Positions 6,925-15,585 of a DNA stretch of 64,000 nucleotides are shown here, in pieces (position 1 is the stretch's first letter; every line of letters begins with the position of its first letter). Where the stretch lies: positions 1 to 64,000 of the forward strand of contig JAQYVY010000011.1 in assembly GCA_030145195.1 (NCBI GenBank). Direction: 5' to 3'. Source of the stretch: Desulfuromonadales bacterium (GTDB lineage Bacteria; Desulfobacterota; Desulfuromonadia; Desulfuromonadales; BM103). A model generated the notes under the pieces. That model did no database searches, was not told where the DNA came from, and saw only the letters and a program-made list of their open reading frames with translations. Position numbers and translations under genes: made by a program.

Positions 6925-7029
6925 ATGACACAAATCGGTCGTAACGATCCTTGCCTTTGCGGCAGCGGCAAAAAATACAAAAAATGTTGTCTGGGGCAAG
7001 AACAGATTGACCCCGGAACTCGAGGTTAA
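6925..7029 (+). CDS. SEC-C motif mini-protein
   Basis: The 34-residue protein is almost wholly a SEC-C zinc-binding motif: [16 protein letters not shown] at residues 7-22. This is the C-terminal zinc finger of SecA and of many small accessory proteins. AAGGAA lies seven bases before the ATG. The last codons (IDPGTRG) fall within the repeat that recurs at 15236. The present stop and C-terminus may therefore have been supplied by the repeat, and the gene may be a truncated remnant of a longer SEC-C protein. Confidence 0.7.
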
Positions 7030-7372
7030 ATCAGCGTTCATCAGATTTGATCAGCGGCCAATTGCCCTAAAGCTTAGATTTCCACGACCCTCGTCCCGCG
7101 ACCCTCGTCCCTTTCCTTTTAGCTACTGGCAAAACCGGCAGTTCTCGCACTGCCAGGCGACGTACTTTTTTCAACGCTAAAAAAGTAAGCAAAAAAGCTT
7201 AACTCCTGGCGGAGGGCATGTGTACTCCAATAGCTCAGGATTTTATACGTTCTTCGGTAGGGCCGTGAGGTTCTGCTGGTCTGCAGCCAATGGCGGAGGG
7301 GCTGTTCTTAAGGGCCCCTGTGTGTTCTTGATATATTTTTTGTAGTCCGCGCTTTTTGGGGAATTAACTTCA
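7004..7372. repeat. mosaic repeat; left direct repeat of the caspase island
   Basis: From about 7004 to 7150 it matches 15236-15385 with only a few differences, including AAATCAGCGTTCATCAGATT and the tandem TCGTCCC / CCCTCGTCCC. The common downstream modules follow. The internal hairpin here is shortened (TTTTTTCAACGCTAAAAAA) relative to the other copies. Orientation is the same as at 15 kb. Confidence 0.85.
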
Positions 7373-7614
7373 TCACGACTCGGATAACAAAACGCTAAAA
7401 TATGCCCTGTTTTCGTGCTATGGGACTGTTTTTGGGGCCGAAATTAGCCCTATACGCGGTGGTTATCGTGGTCCGACCCCGTCCACCTGGTGAGTGGTGC
7501 TTTCGAGGTGTCAGATCCGACGCCGATTATTATGCGTTTTGTGGATCGGTGTTTAGCTGACAAAGGGTATCAGTCGCTTGGTTGGCGGTGAGGGCCCCTC
7601 CGCATCATGCTAAA
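7373..7614. other. intergenic region without an assignable gene
   Basis: No open frame with a plausible start and family is visible. A short A/T-G/C alternating stretch (CTAAAATATGCCCTGTTTTC, GGCCGAAATTAGCCC) loosely resembles the sequence at 14800-14850 on the other side of the caspase cluster. It may be an old repeat. Confidence 0.4.
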
Positions 7615-7646
7615 AAGGCCCTGTTTCGGAGATGAAACAGGGCCTT
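7615..7646 (-). terminator. Rho-independent terminator of the CHAT gene
   Basis: Perfect 13-base arms (AAGGCCCTGTTTC / GAAACAGGGCCTT) enclose a six-base loop. Read on the minus strand, they are followed by a run of Ts. It lies 27 bases past the CHAT stop codon. Confidence 0.9.
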
Positions 7647-7673
7647 CTTGATGTCTGCTTTTTAGAGGTTTTC

Positions 7674-10373
7674 TTATCCCTCAGCCGAGATCACGATGAA
7701 GGGTGACCAGAAAAAGGGGTTGCCGCGTTGTTTGAAACGCTTCGGGATTTCGCCTGAAGTCTTTACTTTCTTGCGTCCAATCCCTCTGGCCGATTGAACC
7801 TCTATCTGCTGCTTTTTAGTCATATAGTATTCCCGCTTTGCCGCGGCAAGCGCTGTGGGGGCATCCAATCCTCTGGCCATTTGCTGGTAAAAGCTGACCA
7901 TCAACTCCTTGGTTGCCATGGAGTCAACTGGCCACAGCGAAACGACGACCTGTTTGGAACCGGCCACCATGAAGGCGCGACCGATTCCCATCAGACCCTC
8001 GCCGCGGAAATATTCGCCATTGCCGGTGTTGCAGGCTGAGAGTACGGTCATGTCGGCGTTCAGGTTGAGCTTGGAGACTTCGCTGGCAGTTAAGAAACCA
8101 TCTTCTCCGTCCTCATACGAAAGCACCAGCGCCGGTTCTGTGAGCGTTGGGATCTCGCCGCCGATGACGCCATGGGTGGCAAAGTGGACGTGGGAGTAGG
8201 GGGAGAGATCCATGGTTTTTATGGTGCTCTCTTTGGCCTTGTCACCGAGCAGCATTGAGCCCTTGTTGGTGAAACCGGTCAGGATCTCCTGAACCTCGTC
8301 GCGGGTTTCCGGCAGGGCTTGGAACATGCTCAGATCGCTGCTTCCTCTGGTGGCTTGCATCACCCCTCGCCCGATATGACGGTCGATGGTCTCCTCGGCG
8401 TTGTAAACCGGGTCTGCCACGGCAAATAGTTGTTTGTTCTGGTTGCTTGCCGAACTCTGTCCGAGCAGGGCAAGTGATGGCAGGTAGGAGACCGTGGTCA
8501 GATCGGCGAGAATCGAGCTGCTCCAGATCGGGAAGATCTCCAGCGGCAGGGCCGACAGGGCACCGTCCGACAGAACGTAGAGCCGGTCCGTTTCGCCCAA
8601 CTGCTCCTCGATCCCGGTGAACACCTGGCGGGAGATCTCGCGCAACCCGGCGTAGTCGAACTGCTGGTTTTCGGCCAGACGGTTGCGTAGTTTGAAGATA
8701 TTTTTATCCCATGCTGCGTCTTTGGCGAAGAGCTGGGCTGAGTGGGTCTTGCCGTCGAAGAAGGCCACCAGGCAGGATTCGACCATGTCGACGATCAGCA
8801 GCGCGCCACTTTTTTGCGGCAGTTGCGTGCGGAGGGAGGTCAAGTTGATATTCTGAATGTCGGTGGCGTCATCGCTCTGTAACATTTCTCGAAGCTGCCG
8901 GGACCGGAAGTTCTCTGCCGCAGCGATAACTTGTGAAAAGGACGTATCGTTGGGCGAACTTTTATATTGTGCCGTCGCACAACGGAGCAGGCCGAAGTAG
9001 CTCTCACGGGCCGTGGAGCGGAAGAAGTGATTGCGCTCCTCGACTGGCAGGCTCTGGCGGACTTTTTCAGAAAATATAACATGCTCTTGGTAGAGAGAGC
9101 TCGCCTCTCGATAGCGATTTAACTTCTCCAGCGTCATAGCTTCGAGCAGTTTCAACTCCAGAGCATCATAATCGATTCCGTGCGTCTGCCGATACCGGGT
9201 CGGGAGCTGGTCAAAAAGATCCTCAACTTTCGCAAATTCGACCTTGGCCTGTTGCAGCGATTCCAGTGCTTTTGGGTACTCGCCAAGGGTGAAGCGGATT
9301 TCGGCGTCTTTTGAGTGTAGCCAACTGCGGCTACGAAACGGTCGGCGGCGTTGCTCCATCTTCTCTAGCTCGAGATATTCTCTTTTCAGAAAACCCAGTT
9401 GTGTTCTTTTATAAGAATCCACCGCATAGTTCTGCGAGGCGATCTGATCTGTTATCGTCAAGCGCCTGACATTGAGTCGATAACAGTCCTTGGCTCTCTC
9501 GAGGGCCTCCAGGGCTTTTTCGGTTTCTCCTTGCTCGGCAAACAGCTTGGCGTAAGGAACAAATAGAGCATCTTCCAGGCGGTTCAGGTAACTATCTGAG
9601 TTTTCATCTTTCGCTACGGTCACATAACGAAAGTCGTCAATGCTGCTGATTGGAGCGAAGTATCTTATTTCAGGGAAGGCCTCAATGGAGGCCTTCAGAA
9701 ACTCGTATCGGCGCTCCCATTCGGTGATGTTGATTTGTCGTTTGCGATCAAGCTCGAACTCGAGGCGGACTCTGTGCGCCGTTGCCTGGAAAAAGACCGT
9801 TTGCGCATCATATTGACCCGGATCTTGTTTGATGTCACAGGCGAAAAGATCCTTTGCAGTTTTTTCCAGTTCAATAATTCCTTTTTCGGCCAAATCGTAT
9901 TGACCCAGCCTGATATAAGAGTCAATCAGCTTCGCCTGGTATTCGAGGTGTCCGCCAATGATGAGGTTCTCCAGCGTTTCTTCGCTCGCCAACTTCAGGT
10001 AGGGTATGGCCAGGCCCGGTCGCCCGCTTCCTTCGAAATATGTGATGATTGCGCTGTAAAGGCTACCCACGTTGCCGTAAAAGACATTCGCAGTGCCCAT
10101 GTATTTTGCCGCATATGATGACTTCCATGCGCGGTATCCCTGTTCAAAGGAGGAGGTGACAATTTCATCCTTTTGTTGCAGGGAAAGTGGGCTCGAATTT
10201 TCTGAAGCTTTCGCGGGGTCATTGATCTTCCATATGGTGTCGGCCAGTCGGTGCATCTCGGCCAATTGTGGATTCGCCGCGACTTCGGCTGCTGTTCTCT
10301 TGTCAACGCATGCGCATAGTGCAAGGCCGATTAATGCAACAGCCAGAAGTCTGTATAGTTTGAGTCTTGTCAC
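7674..10373 (-). CDS. CHAT-domain lipoprotein with TPR-like helical repeats
   Basis: The product has about 899 residues. A lipoprotein signal peptide ends LALCAC (cysteine near 22). A long alpha-helical TPR-like region follows (about 60-480; for example AEKGIIELEKTAKDL, GETEKALEALERAKDC, GEYPKALESLQQAK). A C-terminal CHAT caspase-fold peptidase (about 600-899) carries the dyad in VHFATHG (about H734) and LSACNTG (about C781), plus GEGLMGIGRAFMVAGSKQVV and a terminal WSPFIVI. CHAT proteases cleave partner proteins. The lipobox places this one in the cell envelope. The GTG at 10373 (GGAG nine bases upstream) fits the signal peptide better than the GTG at 10388. It is the last gene of a three-gene minus-strand set. 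Confidence 0.9.
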   Translation of the reverse strand: MTRLKLYRLLAVALIGLALCACVDKRTAAEVAANPQLAEMHRLADTIWKINDPAKASENSSPLSLQQKDEIVTSSFEQGYRAWKSSYAAKYMGTANVFYGNVGSLYSAIITYFEGSGRPGLAIPYLKLASEETLENLIIGGHLEYQAKLIDSYIRLGQYDLAEKGIIELEKTAKDLFACDIKQDPGQYDAQTVFFQATAHRVRLEFELDRKRQINITEWERRYEFLKASIEAFPEIRYFAPISSIDDFRYVTVAKDENSDSYLNRLEDALFVPYAKLFAEQGETEKALEALERAKDCYRLNVRRLTITDQIASQNYAVDSYKRTQLGFLKREYLELEKMEQRRRPFRSRSWLHSKDAEIRFTLGEYPKALESLQQAKVEFAKVEDLFDQLPTRYRQTHGIDYDALELKLLEAMTLEKLNRYREASSLYQEHVIFSEKVRQSLPVEERNHFFRSTARESYFGLLRCATAQYKSSPNDTSFSQVIAAAENFRSRQLREMLQSDDATDIQNINLTSLRTQLPQKSGALLIVDMVESCLVAFFDGKTHSAQLFAKDAAWDKNIFKLRNRLAENQQFDYAGLREISRQVFTGIEEQLGETDRLYVLSDGALSALPLEIFPIWSSSILADLTTVSYLPSLALLGQSSASNQNKQLFAVADPVYNAEETIDRHIGRGVMQATRGSSDLSMFQALPETRDEVQEILTGFTNKGSMLLGDKAKESTIKTMDLSPYSHVHFATHGVIGGEIPTLTEPALVLSYEDGEDGFLTASEVSKLNLNADMTVLSACNTGNGEYFRGEGLMGIGRAFMVAGSKQVVVSLWPVDSMATKELMVSFYQQMARGLDAPTALAAAKREYYMTKKQQIEVQSARGIGRKKVKTSGEIPKRFKQRGNPFFWSPFIVISAEG

Positions 10374-10411
10374 GTTGAAGGTCTCCACTCTGGCAATTTA
10401 ATCATAATAAG

Positions 10412-10453
10412 AAACAAAGCCTCTTTAAATGGTGTCGTAAAGAGGCTTTGTTT
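10412..10453. terminator. hairpin between the lipoprotein and CHAT genes
   Basis: Perfect 16-base arms (AAACAAAGCCTCTTTA / TAAAGAGGCTTTGTTT) with a ten-base loop have T-rich flanks on both sides. It lies just after the stop of the 10473 gene and upstream of the CHAT gene. It is therefore a terminator or attenuator inside the cluster, making CHAT expression separable from the two upstream genes. Confidence 0.8.
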
Positions 10454-10472
10454 CGTTTAGTTCCATTTGGGT

Positions 10473-11276
10473 TTACTGATATTCTTTGTTGATGATTACC
10501 TGAGCTATGACAACAGCAGCTGGGGCGAATTCCTTGTTCCCCTTGATGACTGAAAACATGAGCACGAGCTGGTCTGTTTTTGCGGTATTTTTGTTATTCT
10601 TGTCCTTGTAGGGGCTTGACCACCAATACTTGTAATCTTTGGGCCAGTCCATTTCAGGGAGGGGTTGCCCGTAACCATTCAGGGAAATGTCCGTAATAGT
10701 CCAGTCTGCATTGGCAAAGCCCAAGGCCCCTATTTTTTCGAACAATTCCCTGCGCAGTTGGTTTGCCTCTTCATCTGTTTCGGTCGGATAGTAAAAGATA
10801 GCATAGGCCTTGTCGAAGATGGCCCCAATCGACGGCACTGCTGCCTCGGTTTTTGTAAGGACTCTGCCCCAAGCAGCACCCTTGGGTAGGGTCTGGGGGA
10901 TGAAGGTGTTATCAAAATTGTCCTTGGTTTGTTTGACCTGGTCCTTGATGATCCGGATTGCTGACATTCGGTCCATTTCGAGTTTCTTGGACGAAGCGAC
11001 CATCTGTTCAGTAGCGGCCTCTATCCTCTTGATATCCTCCTCTCTCTCCGCGGCGTTCAGCGGCCTGCCAGCGAGGCCGGAGAAGTAGTTTTCATAGTCC
11101 AGAAGGACGTTGTAATAAAAGCTGAGGTCTGCATCGGTACTTTGTCCCGGGCCAATTTTCGACAGATCTGGTTTGGTTAGGTGCCGGTTCATTTGCGCGT
11201 TGACCATTGCCTCAACGCAGCCGGTGAGAAGGGCTGCTGCCACCATCAGAAGTAAAAGTAGTTTTCTTTGTCGCAT
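10473..11276 (-). CDS. lipoprotein of unknown function in the caspase/CHAT cluster
   Basis: The 267-residue product has a clear lipobox (MVAAALLTGCVEA, cysteine near 20). The rest looks mainly helical, with a charged segment EEDIKRIEAATEQMVASSKKLEMDR. The C-terminal half has GYGQPLPEMDWPKDYKYWWSS and a closing beta-like stretch QLVLMFSVIKGNKEFAPAAVVIAQVII. I do not recognise a family. AGGAG lies five bases from the ATG. It sits 61 bases after the caspase gene, in the same direction. By position it could be a substrate, inhibitor or scaffold of the flanking proteases, but nothing in the sequence shows which. Confidence 0.85.
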   Translation of the reverse strand: MRQRKLLLLLMVAAALLTGCVEAMVNAQMNRHLTKPDLSKIGPGQSTDADLSFYYNVLLDYENYFSGLAGRPLNAAEREEDIKRIEAATEQMVASSKKLEMDRMSAIRIIKDQVKQTKDNFDNTFIPQTLPKGAAWGRVLTKTEAAVPSIGAIFDKAYAIFYYPTETDEEANQLRRELFEKIGALGFANADWTITDISLNGYGQPLPEMDWPKDYKYWWSSPYKDKNNKNTAKTDQLVLMFSVIKGNKEFAPAAVVIAQVIINKEYQ

Positions 11277-11337
11277 GTTTTCTCCTTAGTTTTGATTTCA
11301 ATATGTCTAAGCTGCTCTTCCATACTGCACTATAAAA

Positions 11338-14300
11338 TTATTTCACAACCCCGATCGGAAACTGCCGTCCATGCAGGTTAACCTGTGGAACCTGCTCATA
11401 GCCCCATTTTTTATAAGTGATGTCGGGAACTGCTTCGTCGACATATGAGGCGATCTCGGCTGTACTTACCACCCCGTCCCGATTTCCATATTTCTGGTCG
11501 GCTTGTTTCAGCGCTTGCAGCAGCGCGTAGGTGAAGACGCCGTGTCCTTTATGTCCCTCGTAAGCTACCTGGGTATCGCTGGATGCGGCGATGGTGGCAC
11601 GGCCAGTGGCCCGGGTCAGCTTGTCGATCGCGGTCTTCTCGGAGATCCCACGGGTGATGGCCTGGGCCTGAACGTAGGAGCCGCTGTTGCAGGTATCGAG
11701 CAGCACCAGGCTCTTGCGGGCGCTGACCTGACTGAGCCACCCCTGCAGGTGGTCCTGATTAATGGCCTTCTTTCGCACTGAGTCTGCGTTGCGGTAACGG
11801 AAGTCTGCCGGTAAGAAATGGTAGCGCCCGTCCTGGGTGATGCCGTGTCCGGCCAGGTAGAGGATGAAGACATCGTGGCTCTTCGCTTTCTGCCCAATCT
11901 CCTGGAAGGCCTTTTCAAGGCCAGCGAAGGTCACTTCCTGATCGAGCAACTCCTTGACGTGAATCTGGGTAAAGATGCCTTTGCCAGAGGTTCTCAACTC
12001 TTTAGCTAACGCTTTGCCGTCAGGAACTGCATGTTTGAGCCACAGGGTTTTGTCCCGGTACTTGTTGATGCCGACCGCCAATACGTGCAAGGCTGGCTTC
12101 TCGGAGATGGAATCTTCCAGAAGCAATTTCTGTTGTACCGGGTTTGAGGCAACATCACCTTGGGCATTGTAGGCGACCAGTTCAACGAGATTCTCTCCCG
12201 GCGATAGCGTCAGGAGCTTTTCTACTTTGATATCTCCTGCGGCCTGCTTCTCTTTCACGGCGATCCCGCGACCGGGTTCATCCACCCCGAGGACGATGCC
12301 GTTGATGCGCCATTCGAGCTTGCCGATGCCGCCGCCCTGGTCAGCCAGAGAGGCGATAATCTTGATGTCACGCTGGTTGGTGACCTGCTCCTTGGGGGAG
12401 AGGATGGTAACCTTGGGCGGTCCGCCCTGACCGACCATCTGCGCCAGATTGACGGTTGGGAGTGTCAGTTCCTCCGGTTGGTCACCGCTCAAGAGCGCCG
12501 TGACTAGGTCCGGGCGGTACAGACGATCATAGAATTGATCCATACTGTAGACATTCAGACCTTCACCGATGCGCACATTGAGATATTTGGCGCCATTCTC
12601 AGAGGCGTTGAAGAAGCCTTCTGGGGTGACCATGACCCATTCGCCGCCGTCGAAGACTGCCAGTTGGGCGAGTTCTCGTCCAGAATCAATCTCCCAGATG
12701 CGAACAGTTCCATCCATGCCCGCAGTAACGAAGTTTTTCTTGTTCGGAACCTCAGCCACTGAAGCAACGAATCCAGAATGACCTTGAAAGGTCTGAAGAG
12801 GGGCGCCTGTCTTGGCGTCATGCATCTCCATTTTCCCGCCTGACTCAGCAAGAAGAAGGTGTTTATCGTCACTGGTGAAGTAGGAATGTATATAAACCCC
12901 ATCGTTTTGCAGCAATTGTGTTCGGCCGCTTTCTAGATGCCAGAGTTGTACACCCTCTATCCCGATCCCTGAGATAACCAACCGCTTGCCATCTGCCGAC
13001 TGTGATAAATTGTGTACGGGGCTGTCTTTCGCATATTCAAAAGAGCTTGAAAGGATTCCGGATGGGTACCTCCAACTTTTTAATTTCTTGCCATGTGCAA
13101 TGTCAAAAAGTGCAACACCAGACTCATTTGCTATGAGGTAGCTGTTTCCGTCAGAACCGAGCGGTACGCTCCAAAAAGATTTTTTTTCTATGGAACGAAC
13201 CTCTCGCCCGGAGGGAAGTTCCAGAAAATGACTCTTGCTGACACTCTGCGCTATGTCTTCATGGTTTTGGTGCAGAGCTGTAACTCTCAGGTAACGACTG
13301 TTTGAGGTGAAGTGCTGGTAACTGATAACTCCTTCAAAGGCCCTCTCAAAGAGCAGGTTGCCGGTTTCGGCGTCGAAGACCTTGATCCCATTGTAGTTGC
13401 CAGATCCATCACTCTGCCAAGAAGATATGTAGCGCTGGTTCGGTGATGGGAGCATCATCATTTCGTTCTCGTCGAGGCGTTGCCATTTCTTTGTGGGATT
13501 CCAGTGCTCAAGGTCCCAAGACATGACCCCGCCGCCCGCTGCAAGGACGAGATTGCTGCTGTTATTTGAACTGATTGCCGGCAAGACGGCCTGAATATAT
13601 TTGTTCGTTAGCTCCCCGGAGTTTAGGTCCAGTTGCAGCAGTAGCCCCGGGATGGCTCCGACCATGGCTTGGTCACTTCCCGGCATGAACGCCAGGGAGA
13701 AGATGCCGGATGTCTCCGGGACGGTAAATTCCTTAATGATTCGACCGTTGATGGTGTCCCAAAGGGTTATCCTGTTTCCCTGCTTGGCTGTAAGGGCTCT
13801 TCTCCCGTCGGGTGAAAGAGCTTTCGCCAGAATAAACCCTTTCGTCCCCGCAAAGGTTGACTGGATTTGCCCCGTCTCCAAATTCCAGAGCCGATACTTA
13901 TTGTTTACTGTGTCGATTTCCAGTAGTGACTTGTTGTCTTGAGAGATCATGCGTTCAGGAGCTAAGAAGCCTTCACCCTTGTTTATGGAATGAAGTACTC
14001 TACCGCTTGCTGTATCCCATATCTTCAGATTCCGATAGTCACTGTCCACATAAAGACTGCCGTCAGTCGAAAAGACTCCGATAATGCCAAGGCTCTTTTC
14101 AAGTTCACAGTCTGCCAGTTGTTTTCCAGTCTTTGTCTCTAATACTGTCACGGATGGTTTGGCATCACTTTGGGTAAGCTTCCCGCTAACCAAGATGCGA
14201 GACCCGTTATCTACAAAACTTACGTTTGCAAGCATGGCGTTGAACTTGACGGGGTAACTGCGTAGTTCTCTGAAATCCTGACGATCGAGGAGTTTGAGGT

Positions 14301-14583
14301 CTGTTCCACTCTGGAACAGGATGTGCTCCCCGTCTTCTGATGCATTGATGTTTGTAGGCATGAAACCGCCCAATTGGACGAAGGTCTCAACCTGGTCAGA
14401 TTGACCGAGTTGGGTGTCAGGGGTGTTTAGTGCACTGCTGACACAGCTCAACATCTCGTTTTTAGAGACTTGCCTCTGTTCAGTAGTGCCGATACGAGAC
14501 ATTGTATCCAGATAACTTTGTGTATTCGGGGGCGGAACACAACCGCAAAGGATTACGATAAAGAGCACAAAACTTTTTTTCAC
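11338..14583 (-). CDS. caspase-family (C14) lipoprotein with WD40 beta-propeller
   Basis: The product has about 1081 residues. A short lipoprotein signal peptide ends VILCGC. A WD40-type propeller spans about 50-640 (LKIWDTASGRVLHS, ITLWDTINGRIIKEF, GHSGFVASVAEVPNKKNFVT, GTVRIWEIDSGREL). A linker WVMVTPEGFFNAS follows, then an Ig-like segment (about 710-810, TILSPKEQVTNQRDIK). The C-terminal caspase domain has the dyad in LYLAGHG (about H913) and LLDTCNSGS (about C965). The GTG at 14583 follows GGAGGG by seven bases and puts KK directly before the hydrophobic core. The upstream ATG at 14601 lies within that ribosome binding site and is less likely. The propeller presumably senses or binds a partner and the caspase cleaves it (inference). 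Confidence 0.92.
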   Translation of the reverse strand: MKKSFVLFIVILCGCVPPPNTQSYLDTMSRIGTTEQRQVSKNEMLSCVSSALNTPDTQLGQSDQVETFVQLGGFMPTNINASEDGEHILFQSGTDLKLLDRQDFRELRSYPVKFNAMLANVSFVDNGSRILVSGKLTQSDAKPSVTVLETKTGKQLADCELEKSLGIIGVFSTDGSLYVDSDYRNLKIWDTASGRVLHSINKGEGFLAPERMISQDNKSLLEIDTVNNKYRLWNLETGQIQSTFAGTKGFILAKALSPDGRRALTAKQGNRITLWDTINGRIIKEFTVPETSGIFSLAFMPGSDQAMVGAIPGLLLQLDLNSGELTNKYIQAVLPAISSNNSSNLVLAAGGGVMSWDLEHWNPTKKWQRLDENEMMMLPSPNQRYISSWQSDGSGNYNGIKVFDAETGNLLFERAFEGVISYQHFTSNSRYLRVTALHQNHEDIAQSVSKSHFLELPSGREVRSIEKKSFWSVPLGSDGNSYLIANESGVALFDIAHGKKLKSWRYPSGILSSSFEYAKDSPVHNLSQSADGKRLVISGIGIEGVQLWHLESGRTQLLQNDGVYIHSYFTSDDKHLLLAESGGKMEMHDAKTGAPLQTFQGHSGFVASVAEVPNKKNFVTAGMDGTVRIWEIDSGRELAQLAVFDGGEWVMVTPEGFFNASENGAKYLNVRIGEGLNVYSMDQFYDRLYRPDLVTALLSGDQPEELTLPTVNLAQMVGQGGPPKVTILSPKEQVTNQRDIKIIASLADQGGGIGKLEWRINGIVLGVDEPGRGIAVKEKQAAGDIKVEKLLTLSPGENLVELVAYNAQGDVASNPVQQKLLLEDSISEKPALHVLAVGINKYRDKTLWLKHAVPDGKALAKELRTSGKGIFTQIHVKELLDQEVTFAGLEKAFQEIGQKAKSHDVFILYLAGHGITQDGRYHFLPADFRYRNADSVRKKAINQDHLQGWLSQVSARKSLVLLDTCNSGSYVQAQAITRGISEKTAIDKLTRATGRATIAASSDTQVAYEGHKGHGVFTYALLQALKQADQKYGNRDGVVSTAEIASYVDEAVPDITYKKWGYEQVPQVNLHGRQFPIGVVK

Positions 14584-14911
14584 AGGATTCCCTCCATTCA
14601 TTGAAAATTACTTTATATTCTATCTATAATGTAGCTTGTACTTTAGAACAGCTTTTGATGAAAAAAAAGGATTAATTTCTACCTGAATCTAAGGAATGTG
14701 GCTACCCTTGATTTTGCACAAGTTTCTTTGGCAGCCTTAGGGTCGGACCAAGTTGACTGCCTGAGATCACAGTAAATCAATGCCTAAATAACCAGCAATG
14801 TTGTGCTATAGGCCCATTTTTGAAGCTAAAAACAGCCCTTCAGCCGCTTAATCCTGGGAAAAACTGCCACATCTCAACTCCGTTCAATTTGACAATCAAA
14901 AAGGGAACAGC
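14584..14911. other. divergent intergenic region upstream of the caspase gene
   Basis: AT-rich sequence near 14605-14650 (TTATATTCTATCTATAAT) is the likely promoter region for the minus-strand caspase gene, but I cannot fix a -35/-10 pair. The plus-strand half leads to the small lipoprotein at 14912. A degraded repeat-like stretch (GGCCCATTTTTGAAGCTAAA) lies near 14812. Confidence 0.4.
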
Positions 14912-15136
14912 ATGAAAAAATACATCTGGATACTGCTCTTCATTTGTTGCATGGCCTTGACTGCCTGTACCGGCGACCAGGGGGAACAACAGCTTGAAAT
15001 TGCGCAGTTCGAGGAGAAACAGAACAACAGAGAGCATGCGATACAACTGTACGAAGAGGTGGTTCGTAAGTATGCGGGCTCGCCAAATGCAAAGATCGCG
15101 CAGGAACGTTTGAATGCGCTGAGAGAGGACAAGTGA
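14912..15136 (+). CDS. small TPR-like lipoprotein
   Basis: The 74-residue product has a lipobox ending MALTAC (cysteine at 19). One TPR-like helical hairpin follows: EIAQFEEKQNNREHAIQLYEEVV, then KYAGSPNAKIAQERLNALRE. This resembles the repeat unit of YbgF/BamD-type envelope proteins, but only one unit is present. GGGAA precedes the ATG. It faces away from the caspase cluster but lies inside the same repeat-bounded interval. Confidence 0.75.
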   Translation: MKKYIWILLFICCMALTACTGDQGEQQLEIAQFEEKQNNREHAIQLYEEVVRKYAGSPNAKIAQERLNALREDK

Positions 15137-15208: not shown

Positions 15209-15585
15209 GGGGACACTCAATTAGAGCGTCCCTTTTGATTGATCCCGGAACTCGATGTTAAATCAGCGTTCATCAGATTTGATCAGCGGCCAATTGCCCT
15301 AAAGCTTAGATTTCCACGACCCTCGTCCCGCGACCCTCGTCCCTTTCCTTTTAGCTACTGACAAAACCGGCAGTTCTCGCACTGCCAGGCGACGTACTTT
15401 TTTTGCAAGCGCCAAAAAAAGTAAGCAAAAAATGGCTTAACTCCTCGCGGAGGGCATGTGTACTCCTATAGCTCGGGTTTTTACGCGTTTGTCGACAGGA
15501 TTATGCAATTCTGCTGGTCTGCAGCAACAGCTGCAGTTGTATTGGCTGGCGCAGGGAGCCGGGGACACTCCTGGTGGTGTCCCCC
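15209..15585. repeat. mosaic repeat; right direct repeat of the caspase island
   Basis: A degraded palindrome at 15209-15232 is followed by a direct copy (from 15236) of the 7004-7372 block, then the downstream modules. It ends in a palindrome at 15561-15585 (GGGGACAC, loop, GTGTCCCC). The frame at 15458 that opens GTG TAC TCC is the same repeat-encoded frame that is fused to mtfA at 23738. Bases 15586-15730 hold no visible gene. Confidence 0.85.

Follow-up and report, generated by a model that had tools for sequence, protein, structure and literature searches.

Caspase-fold proteases of bacteria are best known as cytoplasmic effectors. Two groups of them bear on the locus described here: bacterial metacaspases and orthocaspases with WD40 repeats (Peptidase C14, PF00656), and TPR-CHAT proteases (PF12770) such as Csx29 of Craspase. 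The leading papers on TPR-CHAT proteins reportedly deal with CRISPR Craspase. The present locus is a row of three genes encoding a WD40-caspase (gene 1), a lipoprotein without a known family (gene 2) and a TPR-CHAT protein (gene 3), each beginning with a predicted lipobox signal peptide. It lies in a 64,000-nucleotide stretch of DNA (the window; contig JAQYVY010000011.1, positions 1 to 64,000) from a Desulfuromonadales bacterium (GCA_030145195.1), whose genome is a draft of 100 contigs. A second copy of the row in the same genome keeps genes 2 and 3 and lacks the caspase. We tentatively propose that the cluster is an envelope protease module, in which a variable lipoprotein and a lipid-anchored TPR-CHAT protease would form the core and the caspase would be a separable partner.

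A 2012 survey of 671 prokaryotic metacaspases, in the parts of it used here, names WD40 as their commonest partner domain (73 of 671). It assigns 98 proteins to a membrane class, and most of these have an N-terminal helix, possibly a signal peptide; another 30 proteins are given as extracellular, 7 come under both headings, 7 are intracellular and for 529 there is no information. Among 217 predicted metacaspase operons, OmpA domains occur in 14 and proteolysis domains in 23 (PMC3501461). Its operons include cell-surface genes, and the word CHAT is absent from the main text of the survey. Phrase searches of the literature for periplasmic or exported caspases returned no paper, though extracellular roles were proposed in that same survey (PMC3501461, in the parts used here). 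Nor was a description of paired exported caspase and CHAT proteases found in the literature searched.

Gene 1 resembles the WD40 metacaspases in its C14 domain and histidine-cysteine dyad, and differs from them in its predicted lipobox export and in an immunoglobulin-like (Big_7) linker. The 16 long relatives of gene 1 flagged as exported in a phylum sample (about 390 genomes of a larger group; statistics on it ignore kinship) carry ordinary Sec signals by a narrower lipobox pattern, unlike gene 1. Gene 3, like Csx29, has a TPR region followed by a CHAT domain with a histidine-cysteine dyad, but it bears a lipobox, is predicted to be exported and adjoins a lipoprotein gene. There is also a likeness to neighbourhoods of exported CHAT genes with DUF4384, OmpA or CHASE2-cyclase genes, where a TPR-CHAT gene likewise follows a short exported gene (8 of 23 cases) and where, in genomes G317 and G339, a caspase gene stands in the row as it does in the window. 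The neighbours tested there show no sequence relationship to gene 2. Genes 1 and 3 belong by sequence to known families and gene 2 to none. Both protease folds are largely exported here and in relatives, and in the phylum sample they lie nearer each other than expected by chance; should they act in the envelope, caspase-like signalling would have a new location.

Domains, dyads and export signals of the three genes

Reading frames and Pfam matches bear out the first-pass annotation of a WD40-caspase (C14), an unknown lipoprotein and a TPR-CHAT protease encoded in a row (Table 1). For gene 1, the GTG at 14583, behind GGAGG, is a likelier start than 14601; for gene 3, the GTG at 10373 has a better ribosome-binding site and is likelier than 10388. 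Pfam places Peptidase_C14 at residues 840-1076 of gene 1 (4.3e-19, 69.5 bits, curated cut-off 21.4) and Big_7 at 729-774 (4.2e-5), together with WD40-type propeller matches. Against the NCBIfam model of EACC1-associated caspases, gene 1 scores 84 bits, below the cut-off of 140. Its dyad is H919/C971 in the long numbering, in GHG and DTCNSG contexts, so gene 1 has the sequence features of Peptidase C14 and is predicted to be an active protease. The CHAT domain of gene 3 (residues 583-900, 4.7e-56, 190.8 bits, curated cut-off 24) contains H739/C786 in THG and SACNTG contexts, and domain and motifs together identify gene 3 as a predicted CHAT protease. Counted from the GTG starts, the two dyads are H913/C965 and H734/C781, exactly as first proposed. 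The TPR region of gene 3 is weakly recognised, its Pfam matches staying below their cut-offs, and at E 0.01 no solved structure matches the gene 3 sequence.

Gene 2 has no Pfam family above cut-off and no match among plasmids. Membership of a known NCBIfam family was considered and dropped, since all matches were weak ones to the signal-peptide end.

All three N-termini show a charged n-region, a hydrophobic stretch and a lipobox cysteine (C21 in gene 1, C20 in gene 2 and C27 in gene 3, long numbering), in keeping with the lipobox signal peptides claimed at the outset. The lipoboxes LCAC and LCGC are unusual in having Cys at -2. The paralogues of genes 2 and 3 on contig C81 (described below) keep a lipobox, LLSGC and LQGC respectively, and in gene 3 it is common to both copies though their first ~20 residues differ. 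Mis-called starts, which had been named as a way in which the annotation might fail, are therefore unlikely for genes 2 and 3. The cluster proteins are thus predicted to be lipidated and to face the periplasm.

A second copy without the caspase

Contig C81 (L055) carries a paralogous row, whose DNA resembles that of the window row in blocks, starting ~130 bases before gene 1 and extending to the gene 3 stop. Its gene 1 is a 76-residue open reading frame (ORF) that fuses the first ~65 and last ~17 residues; propeller and caspase are gone, the lipobox is not in frame with the usual start codon, and the remnant looks like a pseudogene. The paralogues of gene 2 (305 residues, 32 % identity) and gene 3 (884 residues, 70 % identity) are both open. 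A third gene-1-like caspase, 64 % identical over the last 370 residues and cut at its 5' end by the contig end, lies on contig C57, where genes 2 and 3 do not follow it.

Divergence between the two copies is uneven. The gene 2 paralogues are 56 % identical in their first 45 residues and 27 % after. In gene 3, synonymous sites are saturated over residues 20-430 of the alignment (proportion of synonymous differences, pS, 0.88; non-synonymous divergence, dN, 0.48), while residues 430-898 show a synonymous divergence (dS) of 0.54 and a dN of 0.052, giving a dN/dS of about 0.1. The pattern thus shows a single diverged stretch, made up of the gene 2 body and the TPR half of gene 3, with conserved stretches on either side. 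The contrast with the saturated TPR half suggests that the CHAT half was shared more recently, via recombination or gene conversion, and its low dN relative to dS indicates purifying selection. Because both copies keep genes 2 and 3, and because the variable parts of these genes changed together, we propose this pair as the core of the system. Two diverged copies in one genome also make partner specificity directly testable.

Beside the C81 copy (L055:13860-15364, minus strand) are a HipA-like ORF (396 residues) and a small helix-turn-helix ORF, recognised by eye, which are possibly a toxin-antitoxin pair.

Transcription may also separate the caspase from the CHAT gene. A terminator-like hairpin lies between genes 2 and 3 of the window and another follows gene 3 (Table 1), while the gap between genes 1 and 2 holds no strong hairpin (z -0.3). 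Between its own genes 2 and 3, the C81 copy has a different hairpin (z -3.6) that lacks a T run. Since hairpins separate genes 2 and 3 in both copies, a single operon is doubtful; genes 1 and 2 may form one unit and gene 3 another. Neither window hairpin appears in a consensus terminator scan, which allows loops of up to 8 where the first hairpin has a loop of 10. The same scan gave a weak promoter-like site at 10429-10401, and such sites were overall no more frequent than expected by chance.

Table 1. Coordinates of the gene cluster and of neighbouring features in the window
Feature	Position	Strand	Description
Gene 1	14601..11338	-	1087 residues; WD40 propeller region, Big_7 immunoglobulin-like domain, C-terminal C14 caspase; lipobox ILCGC
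Gene 2	11276..10473	-	267-residue predicted lipoprotein (LLTGC); no known family
Gene 3	10388..7674	-	904 residues; TPR region and CHAT protease; lipobox LCAC
Hairpin between genes 2 and 3	10411..10454	-	17 bp, then T-rich; terminator-like; -24.6 kcal/mol, z -7.8
Hairpin after gene 3	7612..7649	-	Terminator-like, z -6.1
Small predicted lipoprotein ORF	14912..15136	+	74 residues, lipobox (MKKYIWILLFICCMALTAC); divergent from gene 1; absent from the first-pass annotation
Dispersed repeat, upstream copy	15237..15525		Same orientation as downstream copy
Dispersed repeat, downstream copy	7005..7287		Downstream of the cluster

Exported caspases and CHAT proteases in the lineage

Export signals were called by a rule-based detector, not a trained predictor. 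Its rules flag 18 of 308 spurious nested ORFs, and among other neighbouring genes 150 of 347. PF00656 gives 11 matches in the source genome; ten of these C14 proteins have a visible N-terminus, and an export signal is seen in nine. Lipoboxes occur in the window gene and on contigs C1, C6 and C10, Sec-type signals on contigs C32, C57 (two) and C85 (two), and no signal on the contig labelled C14. In 117 relatives, judged partly by eye, 14 of 19 C14 proteins are exported (four are not and one is ambiguous), and 8 of 15 CHAT loci are exported or membrane-anchored (six are not and one is cut). Finally, 40 stretches (20 + 20) were fetched from the phylum sample around best matches; with cut or masked proteins excluded, the detector flags 16 of 17 long gene-1-like and 20 of 22 gene-3-like proteins with a readable N-terminus. 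Given these shares in genome, relatives and phylum stretches, export is nothing unusual for caspases and CHAT proteases of this lineage, and the starting premise that caspase-fold proteases are usually cytoplasmic fails here.

Contig C57 encodes an exported caspase of 463 residues (L056:2849-4240, minus strand) with a C-terminal Cytochrome_C7 domain and three CXXCH motifs (PF14522 1.5e-16, PF00656 4e-14). Among the matches listed for 116 genomes, those in other genomes cover the caspase or the cytochrome part, never both. Covalent attachment of c-type haem takes place outside the cytoplasm, and the fusion therefore points to use of a caspase in the periplasm of this organism. The same contig (L056:4445-6250, minus strand) encodes another exported caspase, which carries PEGA and FKBP-type prolyl isomerase domains and shares 76 % identity with the cytochrome-fused protein across the caspase part. 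c7 cytochromes are abundant among relatives.

Across the 390 genomes, gene-1-like proteins (E 1e-15) occur in at least 42 and gene-3-like proteins in at least 55, both lower bounds since at most two candidates were scored per genome. Both types occur together in 17 genomes, the source genome excluded, against 5.7 expected (hypergeometric P 3e-6, uncorrected for phylogeny or genome size). PF00656 is present in 25 of the 54 other genomes with a gene-3-like match, and within these 25 a C14 gene lies within 10 kb of 5 of the 34 CHAT matches against 0.52 expected (P about 1e-4). The count depends on distance, from 0 of 34 at 3 kb and 2 at 5 kb (P 0.035) to 6 at both 15 and 20 kb.

The arrangements behind these counts vary. 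G317 has, on contig C36, a tight row of an exported caspase (519 residues), a YdjM membrane protein and an exported CHAT protein, and in G339 (contig C122) Pfam identifies a row of an exported caspase, an exported TPR-OmpA-DUF4384 protein and a CHAT protein with a masked N-terminus. On contig C11 of G192, a caspase lipoprotein is divergent from a 208-residue lipoprotein and a CHAT lipoprotein, and on contig C37 of G440 gene-1-like caspases are divergent from a CHAT lipoprotein. A further locus, on contig C3 of G192, is a weak case with genes that look by eye like housekeeping genes between C14 and CHAT. The association of C14 with CHAT is thus conserved to a degree.

Caspase genes also occur in groups. 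G461 (contig C6, L160:3731-8858) has three caspase lipoproteins on one strand with a 141-residue ORF between the first two, and G160 (contig C331, L161) has two adjoining caspase ORFs, the first cut at its start and the second with a lipobox.

Gene 2 has no such distribution. Searches of 118 genomes from the order and of 395 from the phylum each recovered it in one genome, the source genome itself, and a strict-pattern scan of genome contigs, which detects close relatives only, found none. The first-pass annotation had suggested looking for the trio as a conserved neighbourhood; in the genomes searched by sequence, the three genes are not kept together outside the source genome, an outcome that the annotation itself had named as refuting its proposal.

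Short exported genes directly upstream of gene-3-like CHAT genes, on the same strand, were found in G461, G192, G339, G359, G391, G411, G350 and G264. They encode 208-residue lipoproteins (G192 and G461), a 188-residue lipoprotein (G350) and DUF4384 proteins (G359, and with OmpA in G339), while in G160 a DUF4384 lipoprotein lies downstream of the CHAT gene instead. The exported CHAT genes of G391, G411 and G264 (L169:6507-11921, L170:6650-12188 and L172:1224-6709) are preceded by genes for a 265-273-residue exported protein and a ~620-residue protein. The latter is a CHASE2-guanylate cyclase in L169, its counterparts in L170 and L172 being alike in position and length only. A 'FecR-like' label for the 265-273-residue gene is not used, as Pfam gave no such match.

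Proposed role of the cluster and alternatives

We propose that the three genes make up proteolysis machinery that is anchored in the envelope and faces either the periplasm or the cell surface. The fast-diverging gene 2 lipoprotein most likely binds the TPR region of the lipid-anchored CHAT protease, where it would carry or sense a signal and decide when the protease is active. The exported WD40-Ig-caspase of gene 1, a type widespread in the phylum, would be a separable partner in the same compartment. It probably responds to a protein or envelope signal via its propeller, and it may act upstream, processing the gene 2/gene 3 pair or sharing its targets. Our confidence in this reading falls a little short of even.

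Several observations weigh against it. Joint divergence of gene 2 and the TPR half is seen in one paralogue pair only, and the low synonymous divergence of the CHAT half also fits plain gene conversion. An AlphaFold model of gene 2 built from a two-sequence alignment is uninformative (predicted local distance difference test score 45), and profile comparison of gene 2 with the 208-residue and 237-residue lipoproteins beside CHAT genes aligns the signal peptide or nothing, so that homology with them was rejected. At CHAT genes, short exported upstream genes are only weakly enriched: 8 of 23 CHAT genes have one, compared with 18 of 92 other exported genes from the same stretches and 34 of 212 other genes there, and related genomes account for several of the eight; the idea that an exported CHAT gene always has such a partner was rejected on these figures. 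This weak enrichment lowered our confidence in the core pair from evenly balanced to its present level, and raised the standing of the view that caspase and CHAT pair are independent, from doubtful to somewhat less so. Counts in the order also speak against a conserved C14-CHAT pairing among near relatives: of 118 genomes, the source genome included, 10 have C14, 15 have CHAT and 3 have both, with only the source genome having both on one contig. Leaving it out, both families occur in 2 genomes against 1.1 expected (P 0.29). The order-level searches were not exhaustive, recovering 10 of the source genome's own 11 C14 matches.

It is quite possible, though not what we expect, that the caspase and the CHAT pair are unrelated in function and were joined by duplication and rearrangement, their adjacency meaning little. 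The genome is rich in both families, the C57 caspase and the C81 pair each stand alone, and the order-level counts, the near-background frequency of short exported upstream neighbours and the absence of any C14 gene within 3 kb of the 34 CHAT matches all agree with this. Set against them are the excess of C14-CHAT proximity at 5-20 kb in the phylum sample and the extent of the duplicated unit, which spanned the upstream region of gene 1 to the stop of gene 3, so that all three genes were passed on together on at least one occasion.

The first-pass annotation had pictured an undescribed periplasmic proteolytic cascade. Its export signals, its dyads and the C14-CHAT association in the phylum stand; a need for both proteases and a single operon are not supported. 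As an obligate cascade, in which a propeller-triggered caspase would act in the periplasm to cleave either the middle lipoprotein or the CHAT protein, we consider it distinctly unlikely. Three adjoining genes with lipoboxes and intact dyads would suit such a pathway, as would the recurrence in G317 and G339 of a caspase, another protein and a CHAT protein in a row, and the proximity of C14 and CHAT above chance. C81, however, keeps genes 2 and 3 without a caspase, so a cascade is not needed there, though one may operate in the window copy. The C57 caspase has no genes 2 and 3 behind it, hairpins split genes 2 and 3, and none of the other genomes searched has a gene 2 homologue.

CHAT and caspase domains serve as effectors in bacterial conflict systems (PMC10907252, in the part used here), and the PADLOC caspase model matches gene 1 (4.9e-13), but a cytoplasmic conflict or abortive-infection system with mis-called signal peptides is highly improbable: all three genes have lipoboxes, two of them kept in the paralogues, export is flagged in nearly all long gene-1-like and gene-3-like phylum proteins, and PADLOC has no match to genes 2 and 3, so that the component set of a PADLOC anti-phage defence system is lacking. 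A decaying or non-functional lineage-specific cluster, suggested by the broken C81 caspase and the orphan gene 2, is scarcely credible given the dN/dS of the CHAT halves and a window copy that is open throughout.

More broadly, the cluster could be a locally diversified example of a phylum-wide, periplasm-facing surveillance layer of caspase-fold proteases, made up of exported caspases and lipid-anchored TPR-CHAT proteases with swappable lipoproteins that set specificity, one member coupling a caspase to a c-type cytochrome. We regard this as rather unlikely, and slightly more so since the enrichment of short exported partners proved weak.

Two copies of a repeat flank the cluster (Table 1), and a mobile element carrying it was considered. 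Of the 29 matches to this repeat across the genome, most are partial and none lies on contig C81, so the mobile-element reading was rejected and the repeat is taken to be a dispersed one outside the system. Between its upstream copy and gene 1 lies the small predicted lipoprotein ORF.

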